From positions 21,454,068-21,518,067 of the forward strand of contig JAOANR010000014.1 of assembly GCA_030278955.1 (NCBI GenBank): a stretch of DNA of 64,000 nucleotides, in the 5' to 3' direction. The notes under the pieces are model-generated. The model did no database searches. It saw only the letters and a list, made by a program, of their open reading frames with translations, and had not been told where the DNA came from. Each line of letters starts with the position of its first letter. Position 1 is the first letter of the stretch. Positions 6,342-37,297 of the stretch are shown in pieces. Made by a program: the position numbers and the translations under genes. Source of the DNA: Hygrophila difformis (taxonomy: Eukaryota > Streptophyta > Magnoliopsida > Lamiales > Acanthaceae).

Positions 6342-7220
6342 TTACACTGAAGGGAGTAATTTGCGAGAATTAGATGGGAGAAGATCAGTTTTACCTTCTG
6401 GATCCTGCATCAGTACAGGATCCGCCTCCTCTTGGTCGGCGTCGTCATGGAAGTCTGTGCGGTCAAACTCCTCCAAATCCCCTGTTTCGGGATCGGCAAA
6501 GTGAACGGCTTTGCATCCTTTGTGCTCCACGCCAGCAGGTCTCAGTACCTGCTTTGATAGTTCATTCAGCATCATTTCATGATCAAATTCAGAGTCAAGC
6601 TCTCTCTCCTCACTCCTAACTATTACAGATTTTGATGAACAGAACCCGTCATCTGGGTATTTCTGTAACTGTGCCATGTCAAATGTAACTTCTTCCTCAT
6701 CGACTCGCAGTGTTACTCGTCCAGCTTTTGCATCTATCAGTGCTCCGCCTGTTGCAAGGAATGGTCTCCCCAAGATCAATGGCATGTCCAGATCCTCCTC
6801 TATGTCTAGTATCACAAAATCAACTGGGAATAAGATATTCCCAGTCTTCACTATGATGTCCTTGAGGATGCCGACAGGCTTCGTGATGGATCTGTCTGCC
6901 AATTGGAGTCTCATCTTGATTGGCTCGATGTGTCCCAGCTTGAGGCGTTGCACCATTGCCAAAGGCATAACATTGATGCTAGAACCAAGATCACAGAGGC
7001 CCTTTCCTGCTTTGATTTTCCCGATTTGAATCGGCAACGTGCAACAGCCTGGATCTTCTTGCTTTTCCGGAAGCTTGCACTGGATGATAGCACTGCATGT
7101 ATTGTTAAGAACTACCAGTTCTTCCTGCTCAATTCTCCTTTTTCCTGAAACTAATTCTTTCAGAAATTTAGCGTATGCTGGCATCTCAGCTATCATTTCG
7201 ATGAGAGGAATGGTTATTTC
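6342..7220 (-). pseudogene. A2 gag-pro remnant: retropepsin-like aspartic protease
   Basis: Open from 7196 to 6342 on the minus strand. It contains the protease active site region ([11 protein letters not shown]) and the conserved [15 protein letters not shown] segment, then an acidic linker towards pol. A GAA-to-TAA change at 6342-6344 stops it. In A2 the linker is otherwise in frame with pol, which suggests that the ancestral gag-pro-pol was one long ORF. The upstream gag half is absent: similarity to A1 ends at about 7220, where the truncated A1 LTR begins. Confidence 0.85.
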
Positions 7221-7223
7221 TGT

Positions 7224-10200
7224 TGTTCACAGTATTATTATTTCTGTTGTTAAGCTTGATTTAGGGTTTGTATTACCCAAATGATGGGTATTAACAAACC
7301 CCATTAATAAAATGGAAAAATATTCACCAAGTTGTGTCCCAAAACCATGAAATGGGTCTCACAACCCATGGATTTACTGCTTTCCTTTTCAATTTATGGG
7401 TCATTTGACCTTTGGTCCCTCTATTTATGATACATGTTCCTATTTTCTTGGATAATGTTTCATGCTTACATGTAATCGACCCTAGATTAGGTTTTGCTTT
7501 ATTTTAAATTCTGTTTTGAGTAGATTTAATTCTGTTCCAGCATGTTCTAGGTGATTTAAATTTTTGTTTGGTTATTTTGGGTTAGAACTATTTTTTGATC
7601 TGAAATAGGGTAAGATCACACTGTTTGCATGCTACTGTTCAACTTTGCTTTTACTGACTTGGGTCCTGAACCACCCATGTCGCTAACCGATTCCTGTCGC
7701 TAAGCCACGTTTATCGACAGGAGGCTGTTCCGCGACATGGATGCCTAAGGACACTTGTCTTCATAAATCGAAAACCCTTGGTCGCTAAACACCCTGTCGC
7801 GGACCCACGGTCCTCGACTCAACCTTGCTTAGCGACCAGGAACCAAACTCTTGTTATTATCTTCTGCATGGCTCCTGTCGTGGAACACCCTTGTCGCGGA
7901 CCCATGGTCAGCGACTCAACTTTTATTTCGAGACAGGGAATTATGCCTTGCATATTTATTTTGAAAACCCCAGTCGCTAGACATCCTGTCGCGGAGCCAT
8001 GCTCCGCGACACAATTCCAGGTTAGCGACTAGGAACCAAAACACTTAGAAATTTCCAGAGCAATCTTGCGTCGCTAAACTTCTGTCCCGGACCCATGGTC
8101 CGCGACACAACTTTTGCTTAGTGACACAAGGTGAAACTCTGCCCAAATTTCTGTAAATCTGTCGAGGCACCCATGTCGCGGGTCTAGGCCCCTGACACAA
8201 TTTATGGTATCTCGACAGAACTCTCTCTTCTATTTAACCCTAAAAATTCTGATCTTCTATCCTCCATTATATTGCAAAAACTCACATCTGAATCCCACGG
8301 ATTAAGATGTAATACCCTAGAATTGCAATATAAGGCGTTATGCTGCCAAAATTTTGATTCTCCATTTCCCATCTGTTAATTAATTGAACCCTCTAGTCAT
8401 TAATGATTGATGATTCTAATTAGCAATAATTAAATCACTAATTGTTGTGATTAAAGGACCTTTGTTCAATTGTCATTAAAACATTTTTCTATAAACAAAA
8501 TCATGATGCCTTAAACAGATAATCTGGACTGTAACTAATTATGGTAGGAGGGATTATTTAAGCCATCAATTATGGATTGGTTCCATAACCTTGCATGAGA
8601 AACCAATGTCTCTCATGCAAGCTCTTCTCTTTATTTCATTTCATTTTGTCTTTTGCGTATTGTGTGTAACAATTAGTAAAGGATACATCAGACTAATCTT
8701 GGCGGGTATTCCCTCACGGATAACTAGCTCGTATTCTGGGTATTAGTTACAAAGTGTTATTTTGCATAGTCCGGATGGCAGTCAGTGGAAGCCTTGGCGG
8801 TTCGTCCATCCAGGACTATAATAGCTGCTCAACTGATTTCCATCCAGATACAGTTTTATTTTATTTATCTTAATTTCAAAACCCAAATTCCAATCTGTAA
8901 TAAAACTCTGCTAATGTCTGTCAACATTAGCTGATAAGTACTGCAGAGAGGAAGCATGTAGGTTTTTCACTGAATTCACAGACAGTGAGGGTCCAACTGG
9001 TAGCGACACTGCCATTTTAGGGTTTCACCTGTCTAAATTCATTTCATCCGAGTAATTGGGAAATTCGACAGTAGATGTTTACAGTCCACCCGATTATTCT
9101 GCCATTACTTTTGGTCTCCTGACCACTTCATATCTGTGTTCCACCTTCTGTCTAGACCCGCATTTATATTTTGGGTCAATTAATTTTACACTTCCATATA
9201 TCCTTATGCATGATAATATTATGTACTATTGTGGTCTAAAATATTTTGGGATCCTTCCCTTGGACAACAGAAGTCTAGATCTTAAACAGATATTGCATAT
9301 TAAATTTCCGATAAAAACTCCTTTATAAAATCCGGATCTGAGTAAGGGATAAATTCTTCAGTTATGACCAATTCACATTCGACTGGGGGATGATTTTGGG
9401 AAATTAGAAGCAGATTCAGCGATTAGGTTTCACCTAGACTGAAAGGATCTGTGTTTTAATTGAGAGTCTAGTACCTGTTTAGGGAATGATTTTCAGATTC
9501 ATTATTTTCCAAAATTGCTGTTTGTTGGGAATCTAAGGTTAAATATTACACCGAGATGGGGTCCACTTGGACTCAAATACAGTGCAGTAAATAATCTTAG
9601 AGGAACATCATCCAGGCCTTGGTTATTTTCTAAGATAGGGTTGAGTTTTCTTTCAACTGCTATCCTCTTTTGCCAAAGCCTATTTTTGAGTCCTGAGTGA
9701 GTGCATCCGGAACGAACTAATTTATTAATTCGTTTCATTAGTTTGTATCTCACAACCACCCGGAAGGAAGTGAACACATGAGTGGTTCACCAAGAGCCGG
9801 GAATTCTTGACCCATACTCCTTCATTCTGATGGGGAGCTGTCTTTTACTTCCAGGGTCAGACCTTCAAAACCTCCGAGTGATAGGTTTTAAATGCTTTCT
9901 CTACTGCTTTTTTTTACTGCTTTCTTTTAACTGCTTTCTTTAGAGGTCACTCGGTTGTATTGAGAGTTGCGTAACTGCTACTAGGACTGATAGTTAAGGG
10001 ATAGTTCAGGGCTTGATTAGAATCTTTGGGTGTGACATGGGAGAATGATAGTAGTACTTGGCATTTCAATAAATGATTTGTCTGGTGTTGCTTGTCCACC
10101 ACAGATGAAGTAACATACCCAGGTCAGGGCAGTTACAAATCTGTGGTATCTTAGAATTTGCGGTCTTAAGAACATGTAAACTCATACTGTAAGTACCTGT

Positions 10201-10823
10201 CTGTTAAAGGGAACGCTGTACTGAGAGCATGAGAATTAGCTATCTGATAGGACTATCCCGAACAAAGATCTGTGTATAAAAAGGGAAGTTTAATATTGCC
10301 TTATCTAAATCTTGTCCAAAATTTCATTCTTTTCCTCCTGTCCCTTCTGTCTACATTGTGATTCAGCTTCATAGCTAGCATAGTGTAAATTTTGACAGCT
10401 TTCATAGATAGTATTTATCGCATTTTTAGAATAACTTTACCCGCTTTCTAGAATAGACTTATGTGCTTTGTAGAATAGATTTAAGTGCTTTCGTACTCTA
10501 GTTTAAATTCATGTAGTAGATGTTAATCACTTTTCAAACCAATTGGAGCAATACGAATGGAAAATCTAGTAAAACGATGTGGGCCCTGCTTCTATCGCAC
10601 ATCCTCCAGTGAACGATCCGGTCTTACTATAAATTACTGCAATTTTTGACACCGTGTGCTTTCGGGCCACAATTTCTTAACACGAGTAATAAAAACGTGA
10701 CAACCTATAAATATATCCCTAATCCCAACTCCGCAATCATAAATGATTCTCAATTAAATAAAAATCAAGACCGGGGTTTTATTATTTCGAAAATACTCAT
10801 GTGGGAAATTGTCAAAAGTTTCA
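7224..10823 (+). repeat. A1 left LTR, truncated at its 5' end
   Basis: Matches 22317-25914 of the right LTR almost base for base and ends in TTTCA immediately before the primer site. The first ~950 bases (the U3 start, promoter array and TATA box) are missing, so this copy probably cannot start the normal transcript. It retains the leader array of CG-rich palindromes (about 7683-8220). The rest has no supported gene; its short ORFs are frame shadows. Confidence 0.9.
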
Positions 10824-10841
10824 TGGCGCCGTTGCCGGGGA
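10824..10841 (+). promoter_or_regulatory. Primer-binding site, tRNA-Asp type
   Basis: TGGCGCCGTTGCCGGGGA follows the LTR directly. This is the primer-binding site usual in plant Athila elements, complementary to the 3' end of tRNA-Asp. It fixes the LTR end at 10823 and the element's orientation. Confidence 0.9.
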
Positions 10842-10981: not shown

Positions 10982-13969
10982 ATGCAAAGGAGGAAGCAGA
11001 CGCCAGCCGAAATCCTATATAACGCAGAAATAGAAAAGACAGCTCGACGTCTTAGGGCGGAGACTAAACAGAGACGGGAACGGGAAAGACAGGCACTACT
11101 TTCACCAAGCACCAGTAGCGACATTTCTGATATGGCCAACCCTGACCTTCCCCCAATCATTCCACCCAATCCACCACTTCACAACATCGAGGAAGACCCC
11201 GAGGATGCTGATAATGATGATTTGGATGATCCCCCTCCTCAGATCATACAAGGAGGCGGGAACCCACCAAACATTGAACAGCAACACTTCGAGGCACCTT
11301 CTCCCAACCCGAACCCCCAAAACCCACCAAATAACCAAAACCACCAAAACTTCCAAAACCAGCAAAATCAGCAGTACCAGAATCCCCATCAGAATCCCCC
11401 AAATCCTAATGACTTCAATGATCCGAGGAACTACTATATGCATCAGAACTACTACCCACAGCAGTATCAAGGAGGAGTTGAGAACAATCAACAAGCAGCA
11501 GCCGCTGATTACATGCAGCCAATCTTGGAACCATATTTGAACATTCCTGGACAAGCTCCATTCTTGGCCAGGAATTTCGAATTAAAGCCGGCCCTCATCA
11601 ATCTTGTTCAGAGCAACCAGTTCGCAGGGGCAAGTCATGAAGATCCCCATGATCATCTGCAGACTTTCCTAGAATTGTGTGATACTATCAAGAACCAGAA
11701 TGTATCTGCTAACACCATTCGATTAAGACTGTTTCCTTTCTCTTTGACTAGCGGAGCACGAACATGGTACAAATCACTGCCCGTGAATCAGAAGTCTACA
11801 TGGGAGGACGTGATCAGAAATTTCCTGACAAAGTACTTCCCGAAATCCAAGGTGGACGAATGCCGCTCTAAGATTGCGGAATTCAAGATGAAGCCAGACG
11901 AGTCCCTGTATGATGCAAAGGAACGGTTCTTCAACTTGCTCAGGAAATGCCCCCAGCATGGTTTCCATGATTGGGAGAAATTGAGAAAGTTTTATAGCGG
12001 TTTGACCCCAGCATGGAAGAACATGCTTGATGCTGCCGGTGGTCAACACCTGCTATACATTCCCATGGATCAAGCTTGGGCCAAGATTGAAGCAATGAGT
12101 GTAAACAGATCTGTTCTTACTGATGATGTTAATTCCCCTCCTCCTCGTGGTTTATGTGCTGTAGGTACAACAGAGAGATCAGATATTAAAAAGCTGCAAG
12201 AGCAGGTGGCAGCATTGTCTGTTAATCAGGGAGCTGGGAGCTCCACTCAAGGGCAGCAAACAGATGTAATTTGTGGACTGTGTCAAGATGCTCACGCAAC
12301 TGACACATGCGAACAGATTACAGCTGAAAGCTGTAACTTTGCAGGGGCTTTCCCAAACAGGCACCCAAACTTGTCATACTCAAATAACAATGCCCTTAAT
12401 TCCCACCTCTTGAACAAGCCACAACAGCAGCAATTCAATCCTCAGCAGAACCAAGGATTCAATCAGAACAGGGGACAGAACTTTCAGAACCCAGGTTTCC
12501 AACCTCAGATCCAACAGAGGCCTCCTCAAAATTTCCAACAGCCTACCCAGAACTTCCAAAATTTTCAGCCCAAAAACTTCCAGCCTCGATTCATCCCGAA
12601 CCAAGGCCAATGGAACCAAAACCAGAATCAGAATCAAAATCAAAAGCCCCCTTCAAGGCTGGAGAATTTGATGACTGATTTTATCACTAGCCAGAAGGAG
12701 ATTAACACTCAGCTGCAGGCTTCCATCAGAAATGTGGAGACCCAAGTTACTCAAATGGCTAATGAAATGCAGAAAAGGGATAAAGAAACGTTGCCAAGCA
12801 CTGCGGAAAAGAACCCGCAATGTAAAGCAATAACCTTGAAATCTGGGAAGACACTGGCTGGACCTAAAGGAGCGGATGCTGGAAACATTCATGAGGAAGA
12901 TGATGATCCTGTTGACAATGCTGATGAGGAAGCAATGGATGAACAAAAGGAAGCCGAACAGCAGACTGACGCTGGAAAAAGAACGGCAGAAACAGAAAAC
13001 GGTAATGGTGAAGGTACAACCTCTAATCAACCGCCACCAAAACATGATAACAAAAACAAGTTCATGCCTAGGGTTCCTTACCCGGCTAGACTTAAAAATA
13101 AGCAACAAGATCTGAAGTTTGAAAAATTTCTGAAAAGACTGCGGGAAGTTGAGATTACCATTCCTTTGATAGAAATGATCTCTGAAATGTCAGTCTATGC
13201 TAAGTTCTTGAAAGAAATGATTTCAGGAAAGAGACAGGTTGAGCAGGAAGAATTGGTGGTACTCAACAGCACTTGCAGTGCTATCATTCAGAAGAAGCTG
13301 CCGGAAAAGAAAGAGGATCCCGGATGCTATACATTGCCGATTCGGATTGGCCAGAACAATGCCGGAAAAGGACTGTGTGACCTCGGTTCCAGCATTAACG
13401 TTATGCCATTAACCATGGTTAAACGTCTTAAGCTTGGAATAATTGAACCAGTTAAGATGAGGCTCCAGCTCGCAGATAGGTCAATTACAAAGCCAATCGG
13501 GATCTTGAAAGATGTGATAATCAAAGTAGGCAGTACTCCGTTCCCAGTAGATTTCATCATTCTGGACATCGAGGAGGACTCCGACATGCCTCTCATCTTA
13601 GGCAGGCCGTTCTTGGCCACAGGCGGAGCACTAATTGATGCTAAATCCGGAAGGGTGACACTCCGCGTTGATGGGGATGAAGTCATTTTCGACATGGAGC
13701 AACTGCGGAAATTTCCGAACGACAGTTCTTGTTTTTCTTTTGATGATGTAATAGTTAGGAAAGAGCTAGACTCTGGAAACAATGATGAAATGATGCTGTA
13801 TGGACCTTCAAAGCAGGTACTGAAGCCTGCTGTGCTGAGCCAAAGGAACAGTGCAGCGCCGTCCAATTTGAGGATCCCGAGTCCGGGGACCTTGAAGTAT
13901 ATGACGGTGCTGATTTCACTGCGCAAGGAAATGATGGCACCGAAGAGGAAGAAGAGGATCCTGTACTGA
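10982..13969 (+). CDS. A1 gag-protease polyprotein
   Basis: 995 codons. The Gag part has a basic N-terminus, an Asn/Gln/Pro-rich stretch (about residues 80-175), an Athila capsid domain (about 195-400, starting [12 protein letters not shown]), a CX2CX3HX4C zinc knuckle (about 430-442) and a second Gln/Asn-rich stretch (about 475-560). It would form the virus-like particle and bind the genomic RNA. The aspartic protease follows, with [11 protein letters not shown] near residue 800 and [11 protein letters not shown] near 870. The last ~45 residues are out of frame: after about 13840 the conserved acidic linker continues in the pol frame. Comparison with A2 suggests a one-base deletion here rather than a natural gag-pol frameshift. 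Confidence 0.9.
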
Positions 13970-16785
13970 TGCAGGGTCCCGAAGGTAAATCTGATCTCCC
14001 ACTACCCAATTCTCGCAAATTACTCCCTTCCGTTGAATGCCCACCAGAGCTTGAACTTAAAACATTATCCGATCATCTCAAGTACGCGTTTCTCGCAGAA
14101 CATAAAAAATTACCTGTTATTGTTTCGGCTAAGCTCTCCCAAGAGCAAGAAAATGCTCTGGTGGTCGTTCTTAAGAAACATGTACATGCAATAGGTTGGA
14201 CCATTTCTGATATAAAAGGAATAAGCCCTTCTATTTGCATGCACAGGATTATAATGGAAGAAGAGTATAAACCCTCCCGTCAGCCTCAGAGGCGTTTGAA
14301 CCCCCTCATGCAAGAAGTGGTAAGAAAGGAGGTTATCAAGCTCTTAGATGCTGGTATAATCTATCCTATATCTGACAGCAAATGGGTCAGCCCAGTGCAG
14401 GTCGTGCCAAAACGAGGAGGGATGTGCATAACCAAGAATGAGCAAGGAGAAGAGGTCGCAACCAGGCCAGTGACCGGATGGAGAGTTCGCATCGACTACC
14501 GGAAGCTGAATGAGGCCACCCGCAAGGACCATTTTCCATTGCCTTTTATTGATCAAATGCTTGAGAGGTTGGCAGGGAGAGAATTTTATTGCTTTTTGGA
14601 TGGCTATTCTGGGTATAATCAGATTGTTATTTCAAGCGAAGACCATGAAAAAACAACTTTTACTTGCCCTTATGGCACTTTTGCCTACAGGCGCATGCCA
14701 TTTGGTCTTTGCAATGCACCTGCTACTTTTCAACGATGCATGATGTCTATATTCTCTGAATTTATCGAAAAATGCATTGAGGTCTTCATGGATGACTTCT
14801 CTGTATATGGAGATACGTTTGATGAGTGTTTGACTAATCTTGCTAAGATTTTAAAAAGGTGTGAGGACACTAACTTGGTTTTAAACTGGGAAAAGTGCCA
14901 TTTTATGGTCACTGAGGGCATAGTGTTAGGTCATCGCATTTCTCGTGCAGGCATCGAAGTTGATCCAGCCAAAGTTTCCATCATTTCCAATCTCCCTCTC
15001 CCTAACTCGATCAAATCAGTTAGGAGCTTCTTAGGGCATGCCGGTTTTTACCGGAGATTCATTAAGGATTTCTCTAAAATTGCCAAGCCGCTCACTAATC
15101 TGCTTTGTAAAGAAAATCCCTTCTTAATAAATGAAGCGTGTGTCCAAGCCTTTGACACGCTCAAGAAGATGTTGGTTTCTGCACTGATAGTGCAACCACC
15201 CGATTGGTCAATACCTTTCGAGGTAATGTGCGATGCTAGTGGTCTCGCCGTAGGCGCAGTCCTTGGACAACATAAGGATGGGAGACACTGCGTAATTCAT
15301 TACGCAAGTCATGCCCTGAATGAAGCCCAAATTAACTACACCACAACGGAGAAAGAGATGTATGTTGTAATCTTCGTGTCTGATAAATTCAGACAGTATC
15401 TTATAGGTACGAAGACCATAGTGTACACCGATCACACTGCATTGAGATACTTGTTTAGCAAACAAGACGCCAAACCTCGATTAATCAGGTGGGTACTTCT
15501 GTTGCAAGAATTCGACATCATAATAAAAGATAGGCGAGGTCGAGATAATGGTGCTGCTGACCACTTATCTCGATTAGATAATGATAAAAAGGAAAAAGCC
15601 GTCAATGAAGAGTTCCCGGACGAACAGTTGTTTGCATTGCATCTGCATAATCAAGCTTGTCCATGGTTTTCCGACTTCGCTAACTTCTTGGCATGCGGAA
15701 TAACCCCACAGTTTTCGAACTATCATCAGAAGAATAAGTTCAAACGAGATGTATTAAGTTACTTCTGGGAAGAACCTTATCTCTTCAAACACTGCGCCGA
15801 TTCAATAATCAGGCGATGTGTGACCGAGCATGAAGCCTATCAAATTGTCAGAAAATGCCATGAATCAGAATATGGAGGTCACCATAGTCCCGCTCGAACG
15901 GCCCACAAGGTCCTCGAATGTGGATTTTATTGGCCTCACATCTATGAGGATTGCAGGACATTTGTGAAAGGTTGCGACAAGTGCCAAAGATTAGGAAACC
16001 TCTCCAAGAGGGATGAGATGTCTCAAAAGGGAATCCTCACACTTGAGATTTTCGATGTATGGGGCATTGACTTCATGGGACCGTTCCCACCATCTGGTGG
16101 AAACTACTATATCTTGTTAGCTGTCGATTACGTGTCCAAATGGGTTGAGGCTGTCGCATTACCGACCAATGATGGTAGCCAAGTCATCAAGTTCCTCAAG
16201 AACAACATTTTTAGTAGATTTGGCATACCTAGGGTGGTGATATCTGATGGAGGAACACACTTTATTAATAAAGCTTTCGAAACTTTAATGAGTAAAAATA
16301 GAATCCTCCATAAGATAGGCACGCCTTACCATCCCCAGACTAGTGGTCAAGTCGAAGTATCCAATCGCGAAATCAAACACATACTCGAAGCCACTGTCGG
16401 GATAACCCGTAAGGATTGGGCACGTAAGCTCAATGACGCTCTATGGGCATACCGCACAGCTTATAAGACTCCCATTGGGATGTCCCCTTACAGACTTATC
16501 TTCGGAAAAGCCTGTCATTTGCCTGTAGAGTTAGAGCATAAAGCTTACTGGGCCACTAAAACGCTTAACTTTGATCCGAAAGTCGCTCAGAGCAAACGCA
16601 AGTTGGACCTCAATGAAATTGAGGAAATACGAGCATTAGCTTATGAAAGCTCTCGAATTTATAAGGAGCGGACCCAGAAGTTGCACGATCGCAGGATTAA
16701 GCCTAAGCATTTCTATGTTGGTCAAAATGTATTATTGTTCAATTCTAGGTTGAAGCTGTTCCCGGGAAAGCTTAAATCCAGATGA
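13969..16785 (+). CDS. A1 pol: reverse transcriptase, RNase H, integrase
   Basis: 938 codons; the ATG at 13969 is only the first in this frame, and the true protein probably continues from gag-pro. RT has the FMDD motif at about 273-276. RNase H spans about 420-520 ([15 protein letters not shown]). Integrase has the HHCC zinc region at about 630-675 and DDE residues near 701, 760 and 797. It would copy the RNA to DNA and insert it. A TGG-to-TGA change at 16783-16785 stops the ORF within the integrase C-terminal region. Another 54 codons stay open in frame to TAA at 16948-16950 and match A2. No chromodomain is present, as expected for Athila. Confidence 0.9.
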
Positions 16786-17030
16786 GAAGGACCACATGAA
16801 GTGCTAGAAGTGTTTGAAAATGGAGCCGTCAGGATCCGAACTGACAAGGGCAACATAGTGGTGAATGGACATAGATTAAAGGAGTACCTCGGACATTTCG
16901 ATCCAGAGAAAGAAAGCCAAGCAGTGGCAGACCCAGCTTACACCCAATAAGAAACAGCAAAAAAAAATATATTTTTTTTTCTTATGGTATACTATTCTCA
17001 TAACAGGAGAGTACCCAAAAATCAATTAAA

Positions 17031-17067
17031 CATTTAGAGTACTAAGACTCTAAATGTGAGGATGTTG
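17031..17067 (+). repeat. Hairpin plus polypurine-like 17-mer after pol (copy 1)
   Basis: CATTTAGAGT and ACTCTAAATG form a 10-bp stem at 17031-17056. The right arm runs into TAAATGTGAGGATGTTG (17051-17067), the 17-mer that also spans the start of the right LTR at 21349-21365. The bases after it (TGATATTTGAAGAAAA) weakly resemble the LTR start (TGATAATGGCAAGAAA). Confidence 0.75.
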
Positions 17068-17394: not shown

Positions 17395-17740
17395 CGAAAA
17401 ATTTGAAAATTCAAAATTCGTGTCGCGGAACCAACCACTGTGTCGCGAAACAATGCTCCGCGACCAGGCCTGGTCCCGCGACACAGTCGCACTTATTACC
17501 CTTTCGATGTCGCGGAACATCTGTCGCGGTCCATGGGTCCGCGACTGACTCTCCATTCCGCGACACCATTCCCCGTTGACTTTTCCCTGCCAGAACTCGG
17601 TCGCGAAACTCCTGTCGCAGACCATGGCTCCGCGACCGGACTCATACTCCGCGACTCGTGTAATGTCGCTATGCCCTGGTCGAGGAACCCTGTTTCGCAA
17701 CACAGTCTGGTTCCGCGACCAGTGTTTTTAGTATTTATAC
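17395..17740 (+). promoter_or_regulatory. A1 F-box promoter: CG-rich palindrome array and TATA box
   Basis: From about 17420 to 17720 there are about a dozen short units of GTCGCGGAAC and its complement GTTCCGCGAC in mixed order, forming imperfect dyads such as that around 17530 (GTCGCGGTCC ... GGTCCGCGAC type). A TATA-like TATTTATA (17732-17739) follows, then a C/T-rich leader up to the F-box ATG at 17896. The LTRs of A1 carry the same kind of unit upstream of their own TATA box. Function is inferred from layout only. Confidence 0.6.
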
Positions 17741-17895
17741 CCCCCCTTCCTCACCTCATTTTCCCTCATTTCCCTGCACTCACGTCAGTTTCATCCAACC
17801 TCCATCTTTTCACCTTCTCTTGCTCCCTCTTCTCTCTACCGAACGAACACCACCGTGTTCTTCGCACTCAATCACTCCTTTTTCAAGGGGAAACT

Positions 17896-19695
17896 ATGGA
17901 CCGATTCTACAGGATCCTTCCAAATCTGGGACCTCTACCCAGGCCTGAACCATGGAGGGCAGGGTAAAACCCAATCGTTCCTGTTCATGGCCTCCATCGA
18001 AATCCTTGATCTCTCTTTCCCACTTTTTGATAGAAAATGGCACAATGGGGGTTGTGTTCACTTTTAATTTTTTCTATTTTAGGTTGTGACTGTTCTCGGT
18101 TTTGAGTGGTGTTTTTAAAACCCTTTTGAAACCCTCATGAACCTGTGTGAGAGCCTGTTTTGAAACTGTTAAGAGGTTCAAGATTTTTTTTTTAGTTTGA
18201 AACTGGAGAAGATGAACTAATGAACCTTAGGGTGTTGTTATGAACACCATGATGTTGTTAGTTTGTTTGATCTTGAAGTCTTGGCATGAAGCATTCAGTA
18301 AGAAAGAATCCTTTTGGCATATCTGCTTTCGCTGTCTCAAGATCTTTTGGAATAAGTGTCTGCTTATTTTTGGAAACATGGTACAAGCAACCAATGGGAG
18401 CTTACCATTTTTTTTCAAAAGGGAAGTAACCTTTTGCAAAAAGACAAAAAGAGTGAATAGATTTAATATTTGACTTGTGTTCTTTTTGTTCCCAATAGAA
18501 CTGTAGTGTGAGTAAATAGCAGCATTTTCGTCACCCAACTGCTATCCTTTTCAAAAATTCAAAATGGGACCACTCACATCCCACTTTCCTTAAATAAAAC
18601 AAGTCAACCCTTTAAAATTAAAAAAATAGTGTTTGCAAATTCTTGGGGACGTTTCAACTGTCCAATACAGTCCAAACAAACCGGGAATAGCAAATCCATT
18701 GCGCCACGCCTCCACTGCATATTCCAAAATTCGAGCATTTCATCTCCATCCGTCCATCTCATTCCATTTTTCAACAAGTTTCTCGAACTTGTTTAATAAT
18801 ATTGAAAAATCAAACTTTTGGGCCCGATGGCCCATTAAAAATATATAGGGGCCCAATGACCCCTATCTTTTCACAAAAATCTATTTTACCCATGCTTTAA
18901 ATTAAAAATTCAAGTCAGAAACTTAATAATCTCACATTTAGAGCAAAACTCTAAATGTGAGGATGTTGGTTTCTAAACTTGAATAATTTCCGAGAAATTA
19001 TAAAAATTGGATTCATCCCTACTTATCTTTTCAGGGGAAATCTTCCAATCCCAGACCCAGTGCCCGGAGGAACCCATCTGCTGGACCTTCCAGAGGAGCT
19101 CCTAGGTGAAATCCTCTCCCGAATAGGAGAGGATGAGATCAGGGAAGTGTTCACTGCACAAGAAACATGCCGGAAGCTTAAAAACGCAGGGAACCTCGCC
19201 ATCGTTTACAAGCGATGCGAGTTGGATGCGGCTAGGGTGAGGCAGTGGCAGGGGAGGATACGGCAGCACAAAGAAAGATTTCTGAACACGTGCACTGAGG
19301 CTGGAAACTTCAACCTCCGAATTGTTCCAGCACTCCAAGCATTCACAGAAGGGGATGAAGAGCAAGCCTGCGAATGGCTACGGCCAGGCATCGAAGATAA
19401 TCATAAAGCGTCAATCTTCACCCGTGGACTGATGCTCATGAGCAAGCTAGATGAAGGCCAGGTCAATCAGGGGATCGCAATGATAGAAAGAATGGTTACC
19501 GATCGAGAGGTCCTCAACTACACGTCTACCAACACCCTCTCGTGGATGGCAGACAATCATGCCCCCTACTTGTTTGCAGGGCAACCACCCCGAGTCTTCT
19601 GCAGAAGGATGCATGAACCCCTGAGAGACCACAATGGCTGGTGCCTGCGCTGTGATCTGACCAGCTACGTCCACTGGCTCAGATACATGTTCTGA
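17896..19695 (+). CDS. Retroelement-borne F-box protein (At2g35280-like), two exons
   Basis: Exon 1 is 17896-17963 (68 bases) and exon 2 is 19035-19695. The intron 17964-19034 has GT donor and AG acceptor, and joining restores one frame of 242 codons plus stop. Residues 38-78 form an F-box (LLDLPEELLGEILSRIG), which in this class binds SKP1 in SCF ubiquitin ligases. Residues about 110-175 form a helical, Sel1/TPR-like segment, and about 213-239 a Cys/His/Trp-rich tail. This order resembles plant F-box proteins of the At2g35280/At1g67623 type. It sits between pol and the 3' LTR, in sense, where Athila elements often have an env-like ORF. The A2 copy has the same structure with mostly synonymous exon 1 changes, so it belongs to the element family. 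The substrate is unknown. The splice model is inferred from sequence alone. Confidence 0.78.
18931..18968 (+). repeat. Hairpin plus polypurine-like 17-mer in the F-box intron (copy 2)
   Basis: CTCACATTTAGAG, loop CAAAA and the exact complement form a 13-bp stem (18931-18961) running into TAAATGTGAGGATGTTG (18952-18968), 66 bases before F-box exon 2. The same hairpin is kept in A2 (1415-1445). Confidence 0.8.
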
Positions 19696-21363
19696 GAAAA
19701 GGAGGAAGAAGGAATGAATCCTAGTATGCTTTAGCTTTTTTTTTTTAGCCCTAGTATCGTCATCATGTAAGGGATTTCCTCTTTTGTATGCAGGTTCACA
19801 CTAACTGCATAGGAATCCCTTGAAATTAATGTAATTTATTGCTTTCCACAAATGGAACTTCGTTTTGAGGTCCAAACAATCCCTATTCTTGAAAAGATGT
19901 CTGACAGTCCGAGATGAATAAGTGACTTTCAGGCCAAAAATATGCTGTTGACATGCTCCGTATGTCAGCAGTGCCTCTTTACTGCTTTAAATTAGATAAC
20001 CAGCAAAGGTGTGCATAAACCTGCTCTAAATTCACATGTTGAATTTAGGCTTGTGATGAAAATTTTCAAACTTTTAAATTGGGATAATATAATTGAGAAC
20101 ATGCATGAAATGAATTCCTAAGGTTTTGAGCTATAAAAATCTAATGATGCGATCAGCTTATTGGGTAATAAATCTGCATGTTAGAGATTTCAATTGAATA
20201 AATTGTTAGAATTGAGCTCTGATTAAGTTTGAGAATATTGTATGACATGAATCAACCCAACCTTGTGAGATTTGAGCCATGAGTCACTTTTACTCATTTA
20301 TTTTCTTTGATGTGTGAATCTTTTTGATTAAAGAAAACTAGAACTTGCAATTGGGACCGATTCAAGACTATGCCATATTCCCGAAATCGAGCATATGATC
20401 GAGGCACTTAGAAAAACCCAAATATTTGGCCTTCTTTTGAAATCCAAACCCAAAAATATTTTTCCTTTAGGATTAACCAAGTTGAGCCTTTAAAGCCTAA
20501 TTTTTCTTCGAAGCCCTCTATATTATTCCTAGCCTTACAAAAAGACCAAGAAATTCAAACCCAAGTGTGCAAGAATGAATTTTATCAAGGCATTACAATT
20601 TTTGATCATCAACAGAATTTCAATCGGTATTCAAAAATCCGATCAAAAAAAAAGAAAAAAAAAATTGTTGTTGAATTCGATTCAACACAAATAAATTGCG
20701 AATGACAAATCAAATTAGACATAGTCTAATGTCATGCAATAAAGAGAAAAACAAAAGAAAGAAAAATATTGATGATCATAAATTTTTAAATAAATATGCC
20801 AAGTTAAGATAAAATGAATTCTTGCCACTTCAAGCCCAATGATTCCCTTCCTTACCTAATGCTGCAACCGTATGCCCCATTACAACCCTTAAATAAGACC
20901 TCATGATCTCGATTTAAGGAAATGAGCCGGTGGCGAGTTGGTCTGATTGCAAGCTTATGGGATAATTTAATTAAATTTGATTTTGAGTGTTCACTGATTA
21001 AACCCCAATTGAGAGTGAGTGAACTTTCCGATTCTTCTACATGTGAGGCTCTGTTTCATGAATTGTGATATGTTCGTGTCATCCCTTAATTCTCATTTTT
21101 AATCTCTGCATCGTTCAAACATGGTATTCATGAAGGGTTGATAATAATGTTTGATTTGTAGGCCCGATATAGTGAGTAAGTATCATTTCATTAAACACTG
21201 CAATCAAGGGGATTTAATACTTGTAGTTCTTGAATGTCTTATCCCAATCCAAAAAGAATGTGATTTTTGAAGCCACGAAAATGAATTGAATATGCAGAGT
21301 CTGTGTTCTTAGGAACATTGACTCTGACTGCTCGGGGACGATCAGTATTAAATGTGAGGATGT
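19696..21363 (+). other. 3' flank of the F-box gene up to the right LTR
   Basis: About 1.7 kb with no supported ORF. 19696-20375 matches A2 1-680, so it belongs to the element. It is AT-rich, with a T run at 19739 and A runs near 20647. The last bases, TAAATGTGAGGATGT, act as the polypurine-tract-like border of the LTR. Confidence 0.6.
21349..21363 (+). promoter_or_regulatory. Polypurine-tract-like border of the A1 right LTR
   Basis: TAAATGTGAGGATGT immediately precedes the LTR start TGATAATGG. The LTR start is supported by two inverted copies whose outer ends are the exact complement (41016 and 62110). The tract is not a pure purine run, so its use as plus-strand primer is inferred. Confidence 0.55.
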
Positions 21364-21705
21364 TGATAATGGCAAGAAATGACCATTATTTTCAATCCAT
21401 TTCCGTGTTTGAAACGGGCATTTGATCGCATTCCGGTCTTATATTAAATAAGAAAGCAGTTGAATTGGACTGATTTATGCATAATTGTAAAAATATTGAG
21501 CTGGTATGAAAAATGCATAAATATGTAATTTTATTACATATTTATGTTAGAAAAATCCAAAAACATGAGAAAAAGAAAAAGAAAAGAAAAAGGATACAAA
21601 AAGATGGGCAAAAGAATAAACAAGCCCACAAAATACAAAAAGATGGGAAAAGATAGAAAAGCCCACAAAAAGAACAACTTCGGCCCATCTGGCCCGTCCA
21701 GCTCA

Positions 21706-22129
21706 GTCTGGGAACATCCGGTCGAGGAACCCCGGTCGAGGACCATGGTTCCGCGACACATGAGGGATTAGCGACCCAGCGTGCAACGTAAAGAAGAGAC
21801 CAGTCTGGGAACATCCAGTCGAGGAACCCCGGTCGAGGACCATGGTTCCGCGACACGATCAAGGTCCCGCGCCACCAACACCTTGGAGGTCAAGCCACGC
21901 CCCCAGTCGAGGAACCCCGGTCGCGATCCATGCTTTAGCGACACGGACATGGATAGCGACACAGACGCACCAATAGAGGCACAAGACCCAGTCGAGAAGC
22001 CTTGCCACATGCAGCTCTGTCCCGAGACACAAAGGTGATTCCGCGACAAGTTGTGATGTGTGTGATGTCTTGAGACACAGTGGGCCTCAGATCAAGCCCA
22101 TGGGCCTAGGTCTCCACTCCTATAAATAT
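21706..22129 (+). promoter_or_regulatory. A1 LTR promoter: palindrome array and TATA box
   Basis: Units of the type GTCGAGGAACC, GGTCGAGGACC and GGTTCCGCGAC fill 21706-22060. They include a block of about 55 bases repeated in tandem (21706 and again near 21800). TATAAATA follows at 22121. The arrangement, array then TATA, copies that of the internal F-box promoter. Confidence 0.65.
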
Positions 22130-22765
22130 GAGGAAACCCCCATGAGCTCAGGGTTAGAAAATCATTCCCTTGAAGACACAGTTGGAGAATCCCTCTCTAG
22201 TTAGTTCTTAGTTTAGGTTTATTTTCATTTTTTTGTATTATTTAATTTGAGCCATAGTTTAACTTAGTTTAGTTTAAGTTTATGTTATTTTCTGTTTTAG
22301 TAGCATAGGTAGCCATTGTTCACAGTATTATTTCTGTTGTTAAGCTTGATTTAGGTTTTGTATTACCCAAATGATGGGTATTAACAAACCCCATTAATAA
22401 AATGGGAAAATATTCACCAAGTTGTGTCCCAAAACCATGAAATGGGTCTCACAACCCATGGATTTACTGCTTTCCTTTTCAATTTATGGGTCATTTGACC
22501 TTTGGTCCCTCTATTTATGCTTCATGTTCCTATTTTCTTGGATAATGTTTCATGCTTACATGTGATCGACCCTAGATTAGGTTTTGCTTTATTTTAAATT
22601 ATGTTTTGAGTAGATTTAATTCTGTTCCAGCATGTTCTAGGTGATTTAAATTTTTGTTTGGTTATTTTGGGTTAGAACTACTTTTTGATCTGAAATAGGG
22701 TAAGATCACACTGTTTGCATGCTACTGTTCAACTTTGCTTTTACTGACTTGGGTCCTGAACCACC

Positions 22766-23310
22766 CATGTCGCTAACCGATTCCTGTCGCTAAGCCACGT
22801 TTATCGACAGGAGGCTGTTCCACGACATGGATGCCTAAGGACACTTGTCTTCATAAATCGAAAACCCTTGGTCGCTAAACACCCTGTCGCGGACCCACGG
22901 TCCTCGACTCAACCTTGCTTAGCGACCATGAACCAAACTGTTGTTATTATCTTCTGCATGGCTCCTGTCGTGGAACACCCTTGTCGTGGACCCATGGTCC
23001 GCGACTCAACTTTTATTTCGAGACAGGGAATTATGCCTTGCATATTTATTTTGAAAACCCCAGTCGCTAGACATCCTGTCGCGGAGCCATGCTCCGCGAC
23101 ACAATTCCAGGTTAGCGACTGGGAACCAAAACACTTAGAAATTTCCAGAGCAATCTTGCGTCGCTAAACTTCTGTCGCGGACCCATGGTCCGCGACACAA
23201 CTTTTGCTTAGTGACACAAGGTGAAACTCTGCCGAAATTTCTGTAAATCTGTCGAGGCACCCATGTCGCGGGTCTAGGCCCCTGACACAATTTATGGTAT
23301 CTCGACAGAA
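22766..23310 (+). repeat. Palindrome array in the LTR leader region
   Basis: Near-perfect dyads such as GTCGCGGAGC-CAT-GCTCCGCGAC (around 23080) and GTCGCGGACC-CAT-GGTCCGCGAC (around 23175), mixed with GTCGCTAA units. The left LTR has the same array at about 7683-8220. It lies downstream of the TATA box, so the transcript could fold into serial hairpins. Confidence 0.7.
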
Positions 23311-25914
23311 CTCTCTCTTCTATTTAACCCTAAAAATTCTGATCTTCTATCCTCCATTATATTGCAAAAACTCACATCTGAATCCCACGGATTAAGATGT
23401 AATACCCTAGAATTGCAATATAAGGCGTTATGCTGCCAAAATTTTGATTCTTCATTTCCCATCTGTTAATTAATTGAACCCTCTAGTCATTAATGATTGA
23501 TGATTCTAATTAGCAATAATTAAATCACTAATTGTTGTGATTAAAGGACCTTTGTTCAATTGTCATTAAAACATTTTTCTATAAACAAAATCATGATGCC
23601 TTAAACAGATAATCTGGACTGTAACTAATTATGGTAGGAGGGATTATTTAAGCCATCAATTATGGATTGATTCCATAACCTTGCATGAGAAACCAATGTC
23701 TCTCATGCAAGCTCTTCTCTTTATTTCATTTCATTTTGTCTTTTGCGTATTGTGTGTAACAATTAGTAAAGGATACATCAGACTAATGTTGGCGGGTATT
23801 CCCTCACGGATAACTAGCTCGTATTCTGGGTATTAGTTACTAAGTGTTATTTTGCATGGTCTGGATGGCAGTCAGTGGAAGCCTTGGCGGTTCGTCCATC
23901 CAGGACTATAATAGCTGCTCAACTGATTCCCATCCAGATACAGTTTTATTTTATTTATCTTAATTTCAAAACCCAAATTCCAATCTGTAATAAAACTCTG
24001 CTAATGTCTGTCAACATTAGCTAATAAGTACTGCAGAGAGGAAGCATGTAGGTTTTTCACTGAATTCACAGACAATGAGGGCCCAACTGGTAGCGACATT
24101 GCCATTTTAGGGTTTCACCTGTCTAAATTCATTTCATCCGAGTAATTGGGAAATTGGACAGTAGATGTTTACAGTCCACCCGATTATTCTGCCATTACTT
24201 TTGGTCTCCTGACCACTTCATATCTGTGTTCCACCTTCTGTCTAGACCCGCATTTATATTTTGGGTCAATTAATTTTACACTTCCATATATCCTTATGCA
24301 TGATAATATTATGTACTATTGTGGTCTAAAATATTTTGGGATCCTTCCCTTGGACAACAGAAGTCTAGATCTTAAACAGATATTGCATATTAAATTTCCG
24401 ATAAAAACTCCTTTATAAAATCCGGATCTGAGTAAGGGATAAATTCTTCAGTTATGACCAATTCACATTCGACTGGGGGATGATTTTGGGAAATTAGAAG
24501 CAGAGTCAGCGATTAGGTTTCACCTAGACTGAAAGGATCTGTGTTTTAATTGAGAGTCTAGTACCTGTTTAGGGAATGATTTTCAGATTCATTATTTTCC
24601 AAAATTGCTGTTTGTTGGGAATCTAAGGTTAAATATTACACCGAGATGGGGTCCACTTGGACTCAAATACAGTGCAGTAAATAATCTTAGAGGAACATCA
24701 TCCAGGCCTTGGTTATTTTCTAAGATAGGGTTGAGTTTTCTTTCAACTGCTATCCTCTTTTGCCAAAGCCTATTTTTGAGTCCTGAGTGAGTGCATCCGG
24801 AACGAACTAATTTATTAGTTCGTTTCATTAGTTTGTATCTCACAACCACCCGGAAGGAAGTGAACACATGAGTGGTTCACCAAGAGCCGGGAATTCTTGA
24901 CCCATACTCCTTCATTCTGATGGGGAGCTGTCTTTTACTTCCAGGGTCAGACCTTCAAAACCTCCGAGTGATAGGTTTTAAATGCTTTCTCTACTGCTTT
25001 TTTTTTACTGCTTTCTTTTAACTGCTTTCTTTAGAGGTCACTCGGATGTATTGAGAGTTGCGTAACTGCTACTAGGACTAATAGTTAAGGGATAGTTCAG
25101 GGCTTGATTAGAATCTTTGGGTGTGACATGGGAGAATGATAGTAGTACTTGGCATTTCAATAAATGATTTGTCTGGTGTTGCTTGTCCACCACAGATGAA
25201 GTAACATACCCAGGCCAGGGCAGTTACAAATCTGTGGTATCTTAGAATTTGCGGTCTTAAGAACATGTAAACTCATACTGTAAGTACCTGTCTGTTAAAG
25301 GGAACGCTGTACTGAGAGCATGAGAATTAGCTATCTGATAGGACTATCCCGAACAAAGATCTGTGTATAAAAAGGGAAGTTTAATATTGCCTTATCTAAA
25401 TCTTGTCCAAAATTTCATTCTTTTCCTCCTGTCCCTTCTGTCTACATTGTGATTCAGCTTCATAGCTAGCACAGTGTAAATTTTCACAGCTTTCATAGAT
25501 AGTATTTATCGCATTTTTAGAATAACTTTACCCGCTTTCTAGAATAGACTTATGTGCTTTGTAGAATAGATTTAAGTGCTTTCGTACTCTAGTTTAAATT
25601 CATGTAGTAGATGTTAATCACTTTTCAAACCAATTGGAGCAATACGAATGGAAAATCTAGTAAAACGACGTGGGCCCTGCTTCTATCGCACATCCTCCAG
25701 TGAACGATCCGGTCTTACTATAAATTACTGCAATTTTTGACACCGTGCGCTTTCGGGCCACAGTTTCTTAACACGAGTAATAAAAACGTGACAACCTATA
25801 AATATATCCCTAATCCCAACTCCACAATCATAAATGATTTTCAATTAAATAAAAATCAAGACCGGGGTTTTATTATTTCAAAAATACTCGTGTGGGAAAT
25901 TGTCAAAAGTTTCA

Positions 25915-28813
25915 TAAAGCTATTCTACAAAGCATATAACGTCTATTCTAGAAAACGGGTAAAGTTATTCTAAGAATGCGATAAATACTATCTATAAAAG
26001 CAATGAAAATTTACACTATGCTAGCTATGAAGCATAATCACAATGTAGACAGAAGGGACAGGAAAAAAAGAATAAAAATTGGACAAGGTTTAGATAAGGT
26101 AATATTAAACTTCCATTATTATACACAGATCTTTGTTTGGGATAATCCTATCAGATAGCTAATTTTCATGCTCTCAGTACAGCGTTCCCTTTAGCAGACA
26201 GGTACTTACAGCGTGAGTTTACATGTTCTTAAGACCACAAATTCTAAGATACCACAGATTTGTAACTGCCCCGGCCAGGGTATGTTATTTCATCTGTGGT
26301 GGTTAAGCAACACCTGACACATCATTTATTGAAATGCTAAGTACTACTATCATTCTCCCATGTCACACCCAAAGATTCTAATCAAGCCTAAACTATCCCT
26401 TAACTATCAATCCTAGTAACAGTTAAGCAACTCTCAATACAACCGAGTGACCTCTAATGAAAGCATTTAAAGAAAGCAGTAAAGAAAGCAGTTAGAATTC
26501 TATCACTCGGGGGTTTTGAAGGTCTGACCCTGGTAGTAAAAGACAGCTCCCCATCAGAATGAAGGGGTATGGATCAAGAATTCCCGGCTCTTGGTGAACT
26601 ACTTGTGTGTTCACTTCCTTCCGGGTGGTTATGAGATACAAACTAATGAAACGAACTAATAAATTAGTTCGTTCCGGATGCACTCACTCAGGACTCAAAA
26701 ATAGGCTTTGGCAGAAGAGGATAGCAGTTGAAAAAAACTCAACCCTATCTTAGAAAATAACCAAGGCCTGGATGATGTTCCTCTATGGTTATTTACTACA
26801 CTGTATTTGAGTCCAAGTGGACCCCATCTCGGTGTAATATTTAATCTTAGATTCCCAATAAACAGCAATTTTGGAAAATAATGAATCTGAAAATCATTCC
26901 CTAAACAGGTACTAGATTCTCAATTAAAACACAAATCCTTTCAGTCTAGATGAGACCTAGTCGCTGACTCTGCTTCTAATTTCCCAAAATCAACCCTTGA
27001 TAGAATATGAATTAATCATAACTGAAGAATTTATCCCTTACTTAGATCCGGATTTTATAAAGGGGTTTTTATCGGAAATTTAATATGCAATATCTGTTTC
27101 AGATCTAGACTTCTATTGTCCAAGGGAAGGATCCCAAAATATTATAGACCACAATAGTATGTAATATTATCGTGCATACGGATATATGGAAGTGTAAAAT
27201 TAACTGACCCAAAATATAGGGGCGGGTCTAGACAGAAGGTGAGACACAATTATGAAATGGTCAGAGGACCAAAGTAATGGCAGAATAATCGGGTGGACTG
27301 TAAACATCTACTGTCCAATTTCCCAATTACTCGGATGAAACGAATTTAGACAGGTGAAACACTAAAATGGCAGTGTCGCTACCAGTTGGGCCCCTACTGT
27401 CTGTGAATTCAGAGAAAAACCTACATGCTTCCTCTCTGCAGTACTTATCAGCTAATGTTGACAGACATTAGCAGAGTTATAATACAGACTGGAATTTGGG
27501 TTTGGAAATTAAGATAAATAAAATAAAACTGTATCTGGATAGGAGTCAGCTGAGCAGCTATTATAACCCCGGATGGGCGAACCGCCAAGGCTTCCACTGA
27601 CTGCTATCCAGACCATGCAAAATAACATTTAGTAATTGATACCCAGAATACGAGCTAGTTATCCGTGAGGGAATACCCGCCAACATTAGTCTGATGTATT
27701 CTTTACCAACTGTTACACACAATACGCAAGGACAAAATAAAATGAAAGAGAGAGAAGGACTTGCATGAGAGACATTGGTTTCTCATGCGAAGTTATGGAA
27801 TTAATCCATAATTGATGGCTTAAATAATCCCTCCTACCATAATTAATTACAGTCCGGATTATGTGCTTAAGGCATCATAATTTTGTTTATAGAAAAATGT
27901 TTTAATGACAATTGAACAAAGGTCCTTTAATCACAACACTTAGTGATTTAATTATTGCTAATTAGAATCATTAATCATTAGTGACTAGAGGGTTCAATTA
28001 ATTAACATGTGGGAAATGGAGAATCAAAATCTGCATGAAGATGCTGATTACGACGCTAAACAGATGTTACGACGCTATCCTAGAATAGCATCGTGAGGGT
28101 AGCGTCGTCATGGGTTGGTGTAAGAGATAGTAAATTTTGGATTAAAAGAGTATGTACGACGCTATATACTAAGCTACGGCGCTTTACCAGGATAGCGTCG
28201 TAGGTGGTTTGAGAAATAAGAAGTTTTTGGAAAAAGAAGGGATATTACAGCGCTAAACATTAAATGACGACGCTATCCTAGGATAGCGTCGTAAGGATAG
28301 TGCCGTAGGTGGGTTCTGTGAGAAAGAAGAATTTTGGGGACCTACGACTCTAAACAAAAATTACGACGCTATCTGAGGATAGCGCCGTTGGTTTAGTGCC
28401 GTAGGGCAAGTTTTTGTTTAAGTTCTGGGCAACTACGGCGCTAAGCCTCACCTACGACGCTATCCAAGGATAGCGCCGTAGGGCGGTTAGCGTCGTAGCT
28501 AGCCCAGAAACATGTTGTTGTTCGGGTAATGCAATCTCTGCGATTGCAAGCCCTATTTTCAAGTTCATGGTTCATCAATGCAATGACAGTAGTGAAATAA
28601 GACGAAAACAGTAAACCAAAAAGCATAAAAACATAACAAAGCAAGATAAAAGCGTACACCCATGAACCACAAACCCAAATGAGGGTTTTCAACCATAAGA
28701 ACATGCATAGGAACCCAAAAATGAGAAGAAAACAGAAAACCCACATTGTAAGATAAAATAAAGTGACCAAATGGTCATTATACTAAAAATAAAGCAAGAG
28801 AATCCATAGAATC
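25915..28813 (-). mobile_element. A2 inverted LTR, inner part
   Basis: Reverse complement of the LTR from about 350 bases before its 3' end back to the middle. The reverse complement of 25915-28033 follows the A1 LTR closely. 28040-28500 is an array of ACGACGCTAT/ATAGCGTCGT units in place of the A1 GTCGCGGA type. It is interrupted at 28813/40070 by element C. It abuts the A1 right LTR with no gap. No genes. Confidence 0.85.
28040..28500 (-). repeat. A2 LTR leader array of ACGACGCTAT palindromes
   Basis: About a dozen units, several as exact dyads such as ACGACGCTATCC-TA-GGATAGCGTCGT (28260-28295). The position in the LTR matches the A1 leader array, but the unit sequence is different. Confidence 0.75.
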
Positions 28814-29163
28814 TGTGATACCCCGCGCAAAGTCGTCGCGAGCTGAGGTAAGAATTTTAAATTGCAAGCCTCAATAATTTCTTTGTGTCAATTATTAATT
28901 TTCCGAAGTGCGACCCAACTTCGAGGACGAAGTTGATTTCTAAGGAGGGTAGACTGTAATACCCGAGAAATCGACGTCGAGTATTAAATCCGAAAAATTA
29001 ATTAATTGACTTAATTAATTGGATTTAACTATCGCAATCGAAATAATTCCGGGAGAGCGGAATCAAATATTGTCGCACGATAGCAACTCGAAGAGAGTTA
29101 TCGGAATATCCAACAAGCGGATAATCCAAATATGATTTTTAAAGAACAAAAATCATATTATAT

Positions 29164-29195
<32 letters not shown>

Positions 29196-31567: not shown

Positions 31568-31570
31568 AAG

Positions 31571-31582
31571 TGGTATCAGAGC
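31571..31582 (+). promoter_or_regulatory. C primer-binding site, initiator tRNA-Met type
   Basis: TGGTATCAGAGC, three bases after the LTR end. This is the standard initiator-methionine tRNA primer site of plant chromoviruses. Confidence 0.93.
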
Positions 31583-37287: not shown

Positions 37288-37297
37288 CTGCAGTCCT

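Follow-up and report, generated by a model that had tools for sequence, protein, structure and literature searches.

We analyzed a 64,000-nucleotide stretch of the Hygrophila difformis genome (here called the window) that contains a large Ty3-type long terminal repeat (LTR) retrotransposon on its plus strand, A1, and a related inverted element, A2. Both carry an F-box gene with one intron. Taken as a whole, the evidence makes it likely that this gene belongs to an Athila-like LTR retrotransposon family as a conserved accessory gene and is not a recent passenger. In our best reading of the sequences, accessory-gene status rests on selection, position, and coupling between the gene and the LTRs. 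What is new here is the gene's own predicted TATA-like promoter, with a motif array whose motif recurs in the arrays of the LTRs.

In A1, the gene lies in sense orientation after pol and before the 3' LTR. Its spliced exons form one open frame of 242 codons, which bears out the coordinates given by an earlier, sequence-only reading of the window that had described a two-exon GT/AG gene in matching phase. The parts of the gene in the two elements are as follows.
17896-17963, plus strand: F-box gene exon 1 of A1, 68 bases
17964-19034, plus strand: F-box gene intron of A1, with GT donor and AG acceptor, phase-matched
19035-19695, plus strand: F-box gene exon 2 of A1, with F-box-like region, TPR_27, Cys/His/Trp tail, and stop
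2538-2471, minus strand: F-box exon 1 of A2, phase and splice sites as in A1
1342-680, minus strand: F-box exon 2 of A2, phase and splice sites as in A1, with a 1-base frameshift

The earlier reading had A2 carrying the same gene. This stands for the exons, the phase, and the splice sites, but one base opposite A1 position 19470 is deleted from exon 2 of A2, so that its reading frame is broken, which that reading had not noted. Our recount of exon 1 agrees with the previous one: nine codons differ between A1 and A2, seven of them synonymously.

A tblastn search of the window's own genome (915 Mb) with the A1 F-box protein gave 7,439 first-look candidates, of which 150 were scored. All of these best 150 (A1 included) have E<=1.1e-127 and 84-99% identity, most are without internal stops, and they are spread over contigs C1-C15 plus several small ones. 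Copies were thus collected via protein similarity to A1, not via pol or LTR. We read 40 of the 150 with long flanks and one, L006, with short flanks, leaving out the most diverged copies. A1 and the 40 long-flank copies make up a 41-copy set, and the addition of A2 and L006 makes a 43-copy set. The end of pol was found upstream of the F-box gene in 40 of 41 copies, and the start of an LTR was found downstream, also in 40 of 41. Exon 1 was found in 42/43 copies, exon 2 is open to the usual stop in 35/43, and the splice AG is in place in 41/43. The splice GT is in place in 37 of the 40 copies with the usual exon 1, plus L032 and L048; these two have a differing exon 1 (starting MARFFRLLPNLGPMP) with the donor three bases earlier in the same phase. 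Both exons are open and both splice sites sound in 30 of the 43 copies, so that general decay is not seen. The gene is also not confined to two copies, as all 150 scored genome matches attest, and an Athila-like family carrying a plant-type F-box/TPR_27 gene, as first proposed from the window, is supported in very many copies.

The protein is under purifying selection in the replicating, transposing lineages. Between A1 and A2, the only pair free of the bias that comes with selecting copies by protein similarity, the ratio of nonsynonymous to synonymous divergence (dN/dS) of the F-box gene is 0.195 (confidence interval 0.12-0.31) at a dS of 0.43, and that of the 3' part of pol is 0.103. When the 903 pairs of the 43 copies are binned by dS, the ratio comes to 0.11-0.17 in each bin above 0.05, and the 9 pairs of the lowest bin give 0.29; pairs that join the two motif classes described below give 0.13. 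These values, far below 1, agree with the earlier proposal that the gene is held under selection. Intron divergence (K 0.177) is near the exon dS of 0.195, with dN at 0.025. Variants common to at least two copies number 44 at codon positions 1 and 2 and 74 at position 3, against 91 and 62 for private variants (Fisher p=3.7e-4), a within-sample contrast that is less exposed to the ranking by similarity.

The protein has a recognizable plant domain and an F-box-like region. The latter aligns to PF00646 at 16.8-17.1 bits, below the cut-off of 20.5, and in all 32 copies chosen as open it matches this family at E<=1 (best 9.2e-5). The helical middle matches PF23310 (TPR_27), described in Pfam as "Plant tetratrico peptide repeats," above the cut-off (32.7-33.1 bits versus 27). 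Tail residues C212, H216, H222, W225, C226, C229, and W237 are invariant in 43/43 copies, and H236 is unchanged in 42/43. Conservation of the F-box region is about that of the remainder, with 21 of 38 positions invariant versus 101 of 219 overall. The protein has no transmembrane segment, its highest 19-residue hydropathy mean being 0.52. Protein look-ups returned no relative of the F-box protein, although the same database yielded 7,960 matches to pol; as the word filter reduces the sensitivity of such look-ups, absence is not proven. Searches of the PDB by sequence and by profile gave nothing credible, NCBIfam gave no match, and viral contigs gave no match for the F-box protein, for pol, or for either protein of the second carrier described below (L049).

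Upstream of exon 1 lies an array of a GC-rich motif, which comes in two unrelated classes, and in A1 a TATA-like box follows it.
17420-17720, plus strand: motif-1 array 5' of the F-box gene, 11 matches to GTCGCGGAAC with <=1 mismatch, 0.02 expected
17732-17739, plus strand: TATA-like box of the F-box gene, ~160 bases 5' of the ATG
2690-2950, minus strand: motif-2 array of A2 5' of its F-box gene, 11 matches to TACGACGCTA, 0.03 expected

A TATA-like box lies at most 260 bases 5' of the ATG in 36/42 copies. Motif 1 (GTCGCGGAAC) occurs 6-11 times in each of four A1 arrays (F-box promoter, LTRa, and both LTRb); the rest of the window has no match to it at one mismatch. Motif 2 (TACGACGCTA) replaces it, 8-12 times each, in the three corresponding arrays of A2 and A3 taken together, A3 being the LTR described with the window below; no motif-1 match at one mismatch was found in these. 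An open reading frame (ORF) that spans the A1 promoter array (17440-17964) has no domain. An LTR origin of the whole promoter and intron was rejected, since beyond the arrays only 17-30 bases resembling a polypurine tract (PPT) align above shuffles. Palindromes exceed all 100 shuffles in three of the arrays (A1 LTRb, the A2 promoter, and A3 LTRb). In A3 LTRa they tie with the maximum of the shuffles, in the A1 promoter they fall short of it, and A1 LTRa has none. Given this mixed outcome, and a pol control that likewise equaled its shuffle maximum, they were dropped as evidence.

The class of the promoter equals the class of the LTR in all 36 cleanly typed copies of the 41, 30 being class 1 at both places and 6 class 2 at both. 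Omitted from the 36 were L025 (assembly gap), L031 and L041 (full LTR array not found), L044 (no promoter), and L047, which types as class 1 at promoter and LTR but contains a single stray match to motif 2. When only the LTRa window is counted, 31 + 5 of 36 agree (Fisher p=2.7e-6). Class-2 copies do not form one clade in the exon 2 tree, and in the stretch between promoter and LTR they are often nearest to a class-1 copy. Differentiation between the classes (Fst; 39 copies, 38 at the LTR start, with 6 and 5 of class 2, respectively; A2, L006, L037, and L044 excluded) is 0.44-0.54 upstream and 0.39 across exon 1 plus the beginning of the intron. It drops to 0.13 over the final 500 bases of the intron, with 0.14 for exon 2, 0.09 for the 3' untranslated region, and 0.03 for +400 to +1000, a value reached by 53 of 500 permutations; at +1000 to +1600 it is 0.10, and at the LTR start 0.38. 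Similarity between copies in the promoter array tracks that in LTRa with r=0.96 (35 copies). Segments between the late intron and +1600 give r=0.05-0.27, and those closest to the arrays give 0.48-0.77. Two copies, L029 and L039, make up a sub-class of class 1 whose arrays have drifted in promoter and LTRa alike. In our reading, selection best explains the matched classes.

All 42 copies measured have the intron, at a length of 1060-1138 bases, which confirms it as a retained feature. One copy, L034, had a longer tblastn match (C12:27645540) and was considered as a spliced, intronless copy; it has the intron. A template that passes through RNA is expected to lose a spliced intron, and the puzzle raised by the sequence-only reading holds, in that LTR-driven genomic RNA would still have to escape splicing. 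The TATA-like promoter is a simple candidate answer, as the F-box mRNA need not derive from genomic RNA. If this promoter is used, its mRNA would contain neither primer binding site nor LTRs and would not serve as a template for reverse transcription, so the intron would survive. Conservation per base is 0.88-0.97 in the 3' half of the intron, from position 18444 on, except for 0.81 at 18644-18683; the part at 18444-19034, though non-coding, is far more conserved than the 5' half. It includes the second copy of a hairpin with a PPT-like tail.
17030-17067, plus strand: hairpin with PPT-like tail, copy 1 (after pol), 11 bp core, fold z=-5.2, 20-mer unchanged in 36/41 copies
18928-18968, plus strand: hairpin with PPT-like tail, copy 2 (in the intron), 13 bp, fold z=-5.5, 20-mer unchanged in 36/43 copies

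The two hairpins have the same core. Their tail is identical to the A1 polypurine tract plus the LTR start (21348-21365), where no hairpin forms. A1 and the second, different carrier described next both have the stem CATTTAGAG/CTCTAAATG and its PPT-like tail next to their F-box genes.

The second carrier came from a search of the same genome with PF23310, which gave 5,039 first-look candidates; the best 150, which were scored, are all above the cut-off and mostly have the same 260-aa frame. The F-box/TPR_27 protein of one of these, L049 (G000:C1:62088700-62090900), is 31% identical to that of A1 over 221 positions. At 23.9 bits it passes the PF00646 cut-off of 20.5, and with the same score it misses that of PF12937 (24.3). 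Two hairpins of the same type, at 1355-1405 and 1458-1505, adjoin the gene, which lies ~0.85 kb upstream of a long ORF. Among the 150 matches to this ORF that were scored, 29 have an open frame of 1607 aa, and its full length may be slightly greater. At least 67 of the 150 listed matches to this ORF have an F-box match at ~0.85 kb on the same strand, and none of those listed has one on the opposite strand. The long ORF had no Pfam match in its first 220 residues, and a 450-base slice held no credible domain. The carrier is a second repeated element, probably a young one, judging from the 94-100% identity of the copies listed. The same PF23310 search served to look for a host donor gene; its best 150 of 5,039 candidates resemble the second repeated family, and no single-copy host gene was seen among them. 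Capture from the host, as the earlier reading had it, was therefore not borne out, with no donor gene found and no protein match for the F-box protein.

Several observations weigh against a conserved, LTR-coupled adaptor gene. Ranking by protein similarity to A1 favors intact copies and so biases dN and dN/dS low, and an exon or splice site is broken somewhere in 13 of 43 copies, A2 among them. Within class 1, the correlation of promoter and LTRa (r=0.85) rests on the sub-class of L029 and L039; without it, r is 0.31, like other segments. The 36 matched copies are not independent events, as they share ancestry, with one clear class split and this one sub-class. The F-box of A1 itself scores 17.1 bits, under Pfam's cut-off of 20.5, and the AlphaFold model of the protein has a predicted local distance difference test score (pLDDT) of 37, too poor for use.

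The broken copies and the frameshift in A2 would suit passive transduction, in which the element acquired an F-box gene from its host on a single occasion and has since transported it without benefit; that plant LTR elements capture genes is well established (PMC7264820, PMC13317346, and PMC3726574). We nevertheless consider this very improbable, given the A1-A2 dN/dS at a dS of 0.43, the low ratios in the bins above 0.05, the 30 copies with intact exons and splice sites, the position kept in 40 of 41, and shared variants that are constrained where private ones are not. Its position and sense orientation are also those of the env-like ORFs of Athila and Bagy2, as far as these are described in the part of PMC7264820 available, so that the gene might be an unrelated envelope-type third ORF with a chance likeness to an F-box. 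Domain content contradicts this: there is no transmembrane segment, TPR_27 is above its cut-off, and homology extends over 221 residues to another F-box/TPR_27 protein, leaving the env-like explanation with almost no credibility. The sub-threshold F-box of A1 and the near-invariant Cys/His/Trp tail could instead mean that a conserved protein with a degenerate F-box acts outside the SKP1-cullin-F-box (SCF) ligase, perhaps by scaffolding Gag or RNA or through a role in movement. This seems to us unlikely, though worth taking seriously; the homologous L049 protein passes PF00646 (while missing PF12937), the open copies match that family without exception, and conservation in the F-box region is much like that elsewhere in the protein. 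Our best reading is a gene that probably encodes an SCF adaptor and would be co-expressed with the element.

For the coupling of promoter and LTR, a neutral origin is a real possibility, if somewhat short of an even chance. The arrays could match through homogenization within the element (by conversion or template switching) or through inheritance in two lineages, with short conversion tracts mixing the exons. Tandem arrays do evolve in concert, arrays that cannot be aligned resist conversion, and independent class changes are few; moreover, a class-1 promoter array is slightly but significantly closer to its own LTRa than to those of others (6-mer cosine 0.469 versus 0.459 permuted, p=0.0002). 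On the other side, the similarity of such own pairs is only 0.47, which argues that the motif is common to them and the layout hardly so, and that the arrays are not recent copies of each other. One crossover anywhere in the ~4 kb between promoter and LTR would give a mismatch, and none was seen in 36 copies. Selection for matched promoters is the explanation we prefer.

The remaining features of the window set A1 in its context.
7223-10823, plus strand: A1 5' LTR without its first ~950 bases; its TTTCA end precedes the primer binding site; motif-1 array LTRb at about 7690-8210
10824-10841, plus strand: A1 primer binding site TGGCGCCGTTGCCGGGGA, read from the sequence
10982-13969, plus strand: A1 gag-protease ORF (PF03732 1.4e-17; PF13650 2.6e-4, under its cut-off)
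13969-16785, plus strand: A1 pol ORF with reverse transcriptase, RNase H, and integrase (PF00078, PF17917, PF17921, PF00665), stopping sooner than A2 pol
21348-21363, plus strand: A1 polypurine tract adjoining the 3' LTR
21364-25914, plus strand: A1 3' LTR with TGATAATGG start and TTTCA end; motif-1 arrays LTRa 21680-22110 and LTRb 22780-23330
1-7220, minus strand: A2, related inverted element, its 5' part absent at this site
41016-40070, minus strand: A3 LTR, first part; motif-2 array LTRa 40440-40750
28813-25915, minus strand: A3 LTR, second part; motif-2 array LTRb 28050-28500
28814-40069: retrotransposon inserted into the A3 LTR, with target site duplication GAATC and its own LTRs 99.5% identical

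The region from pol to the LTR measures 4.6 kb in A1, and the 3' LTR 4.55 kb. The two A1 LTRs are 98.75% identical over 3,603 aligned positions (5' LTR versus 22316-25915). The primer binding site TGGCGCCGTTGCCGGGGA is putatively of tRNA-Asp type. The order and orientation of the pieces suggest that A3 is the 5' LTR of A2, and A1 appears to have inserted near the end of A3 with a deletion at the left junction. Outside the arrays, the LTR body of A1 is about 92-93% identical to A2/A3, with one 109-base stretch at 79-80%. Identity between A1 and A2 reaches 95-96% in the 3' portion of pol, as compared with 80% near the gag-pol junction and 86% across the 4.3 kb that run from the protease to the end of pol and beyond. 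Elsewhere in the window, two 297-base copies that are 98% identical, with starts 422 bases apart, lie at 46221-46939, and an assembly N run of 500 bases lies at ~51080-51620.

The domain order of A1 (Gag-protease-reverse transcriptase-RNase H-integrase, integrase last) is that of the Athila lineage. No second RNase H (aRH) was found at E<=1 between the RNase H (413-515) and integrase domains of A1 pol; aRH is given as a marker of the Tat clade in the part of PMC6317226 available. Among the best 120 of the 7,960 protein matches, A1 pol is 53-70% identical over the aligned part, and the named proteins are all from plants. We call the family Athila-like from its domain order and missing aRH.

We propose that a plant-type F-box/TPR_27 gene, from the host or from another element, joined the family long ago. 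The gene would be transcribed from its own TATA-like promoter and then spliced, while LTR-driven genomic RNA would carry the intron unspliced. The same regulator may act on both promoters, and we suggest that both answer to it because the protein is needed where and when the element is transcribed. Most likely, the F-box would bind SKP1, and the TPR region with the Cys/His tail would offer a target to the SCF ubiquitin ligase. Candidate targets are a host silencing or restriction factor or a protein of the element. If this is true, element RNA and a factor that degrades host proteins would appear together. Extra ORFs of plant retrotransposons are common and mostly without known function; here, one combines a plant domain, selection, its own predicted promoter, an intron, and a link to the LTR. 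This makes it testable whether retrotransposons exploit host protein turnover, and what keeps the two promoters of one element matched. Some plant viruses use host protein turnover. Poleroviral P0, an F-box protein that removes AGO1, serves here as an analogy only, and an effect of the present protein on host silencing, as the earlier reading suggested, would be conjecture.

Plant OTA-clade LTR retrotransposons carry extra ORFs (aORF/eORF), described in Neumann 2019 (PMC6317226), Vicient 2020 (PMC7264820), and Vicient 2025 (PMC11963269). As in A1, these genes are conserved family-wide and lie after pol and before the 3' LTR, and the elements are large non-chromoviruses whose LTRs reach about 5 kb. 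The domains named there are plant mobile domain, Transposase_28, Athila ORF-1, and env-like, from which the F-box gene differs, and unlike the ORFs described, the A1 gene has an intron and a predicted promoter of its own. As the excerpt of PMC6317226 states a requirement of 250 codons in one ORF, a split gene of 242 codons would be missed by that screen. Ogre, an OTA element cited in the same excerpt, has an intron that is spliced from part of its RNA; here the intron is inside the accessory gene. Maize Bs1, tomato Rider, and the LTR-captured genes of rice and sorghum are further cases of a plant-type gene in a retroelement. Transduced genes are usually present in one or few copies according to PMC7264820, whereas the A1-type gene is a fixture of a high-copy family. 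An LTR-gene of the F-box family is mentioned for Thlaspi in the accessible part of PMC8764390; in the excerpts obtained from open-licence PubMed Central literature, to which our search was limited (subscription papers being outside its scope), we found no description of a plant LTR retrotransposon that has an F-box gene among its standing components.

The anti-silencing system of VANDAL elements offers the other comparison. It too has an element-borne gene and short motifs in non-coding tandem repeats whose sequences differ strongly from one relative to another (PMC5735166, PMC10398659). VANDAL is a DNA transposon whose VANC protein binds the motif, whereas A1 is an LTR retrotransposon. No exon 2 residue is fixed between the motif classes, and the F-box protein is therefore unlikely to read the motif. 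Tentatively, then, this element lineage may carry a permanent third gene that encodes a ubiquitin-ligase adaptor of its own, from a family of F-box genes found also in a second high-copy element, with an internal promoter tied to the fast-switching motif of the LTR and classes that turn over in step, as VANC and its targets do.
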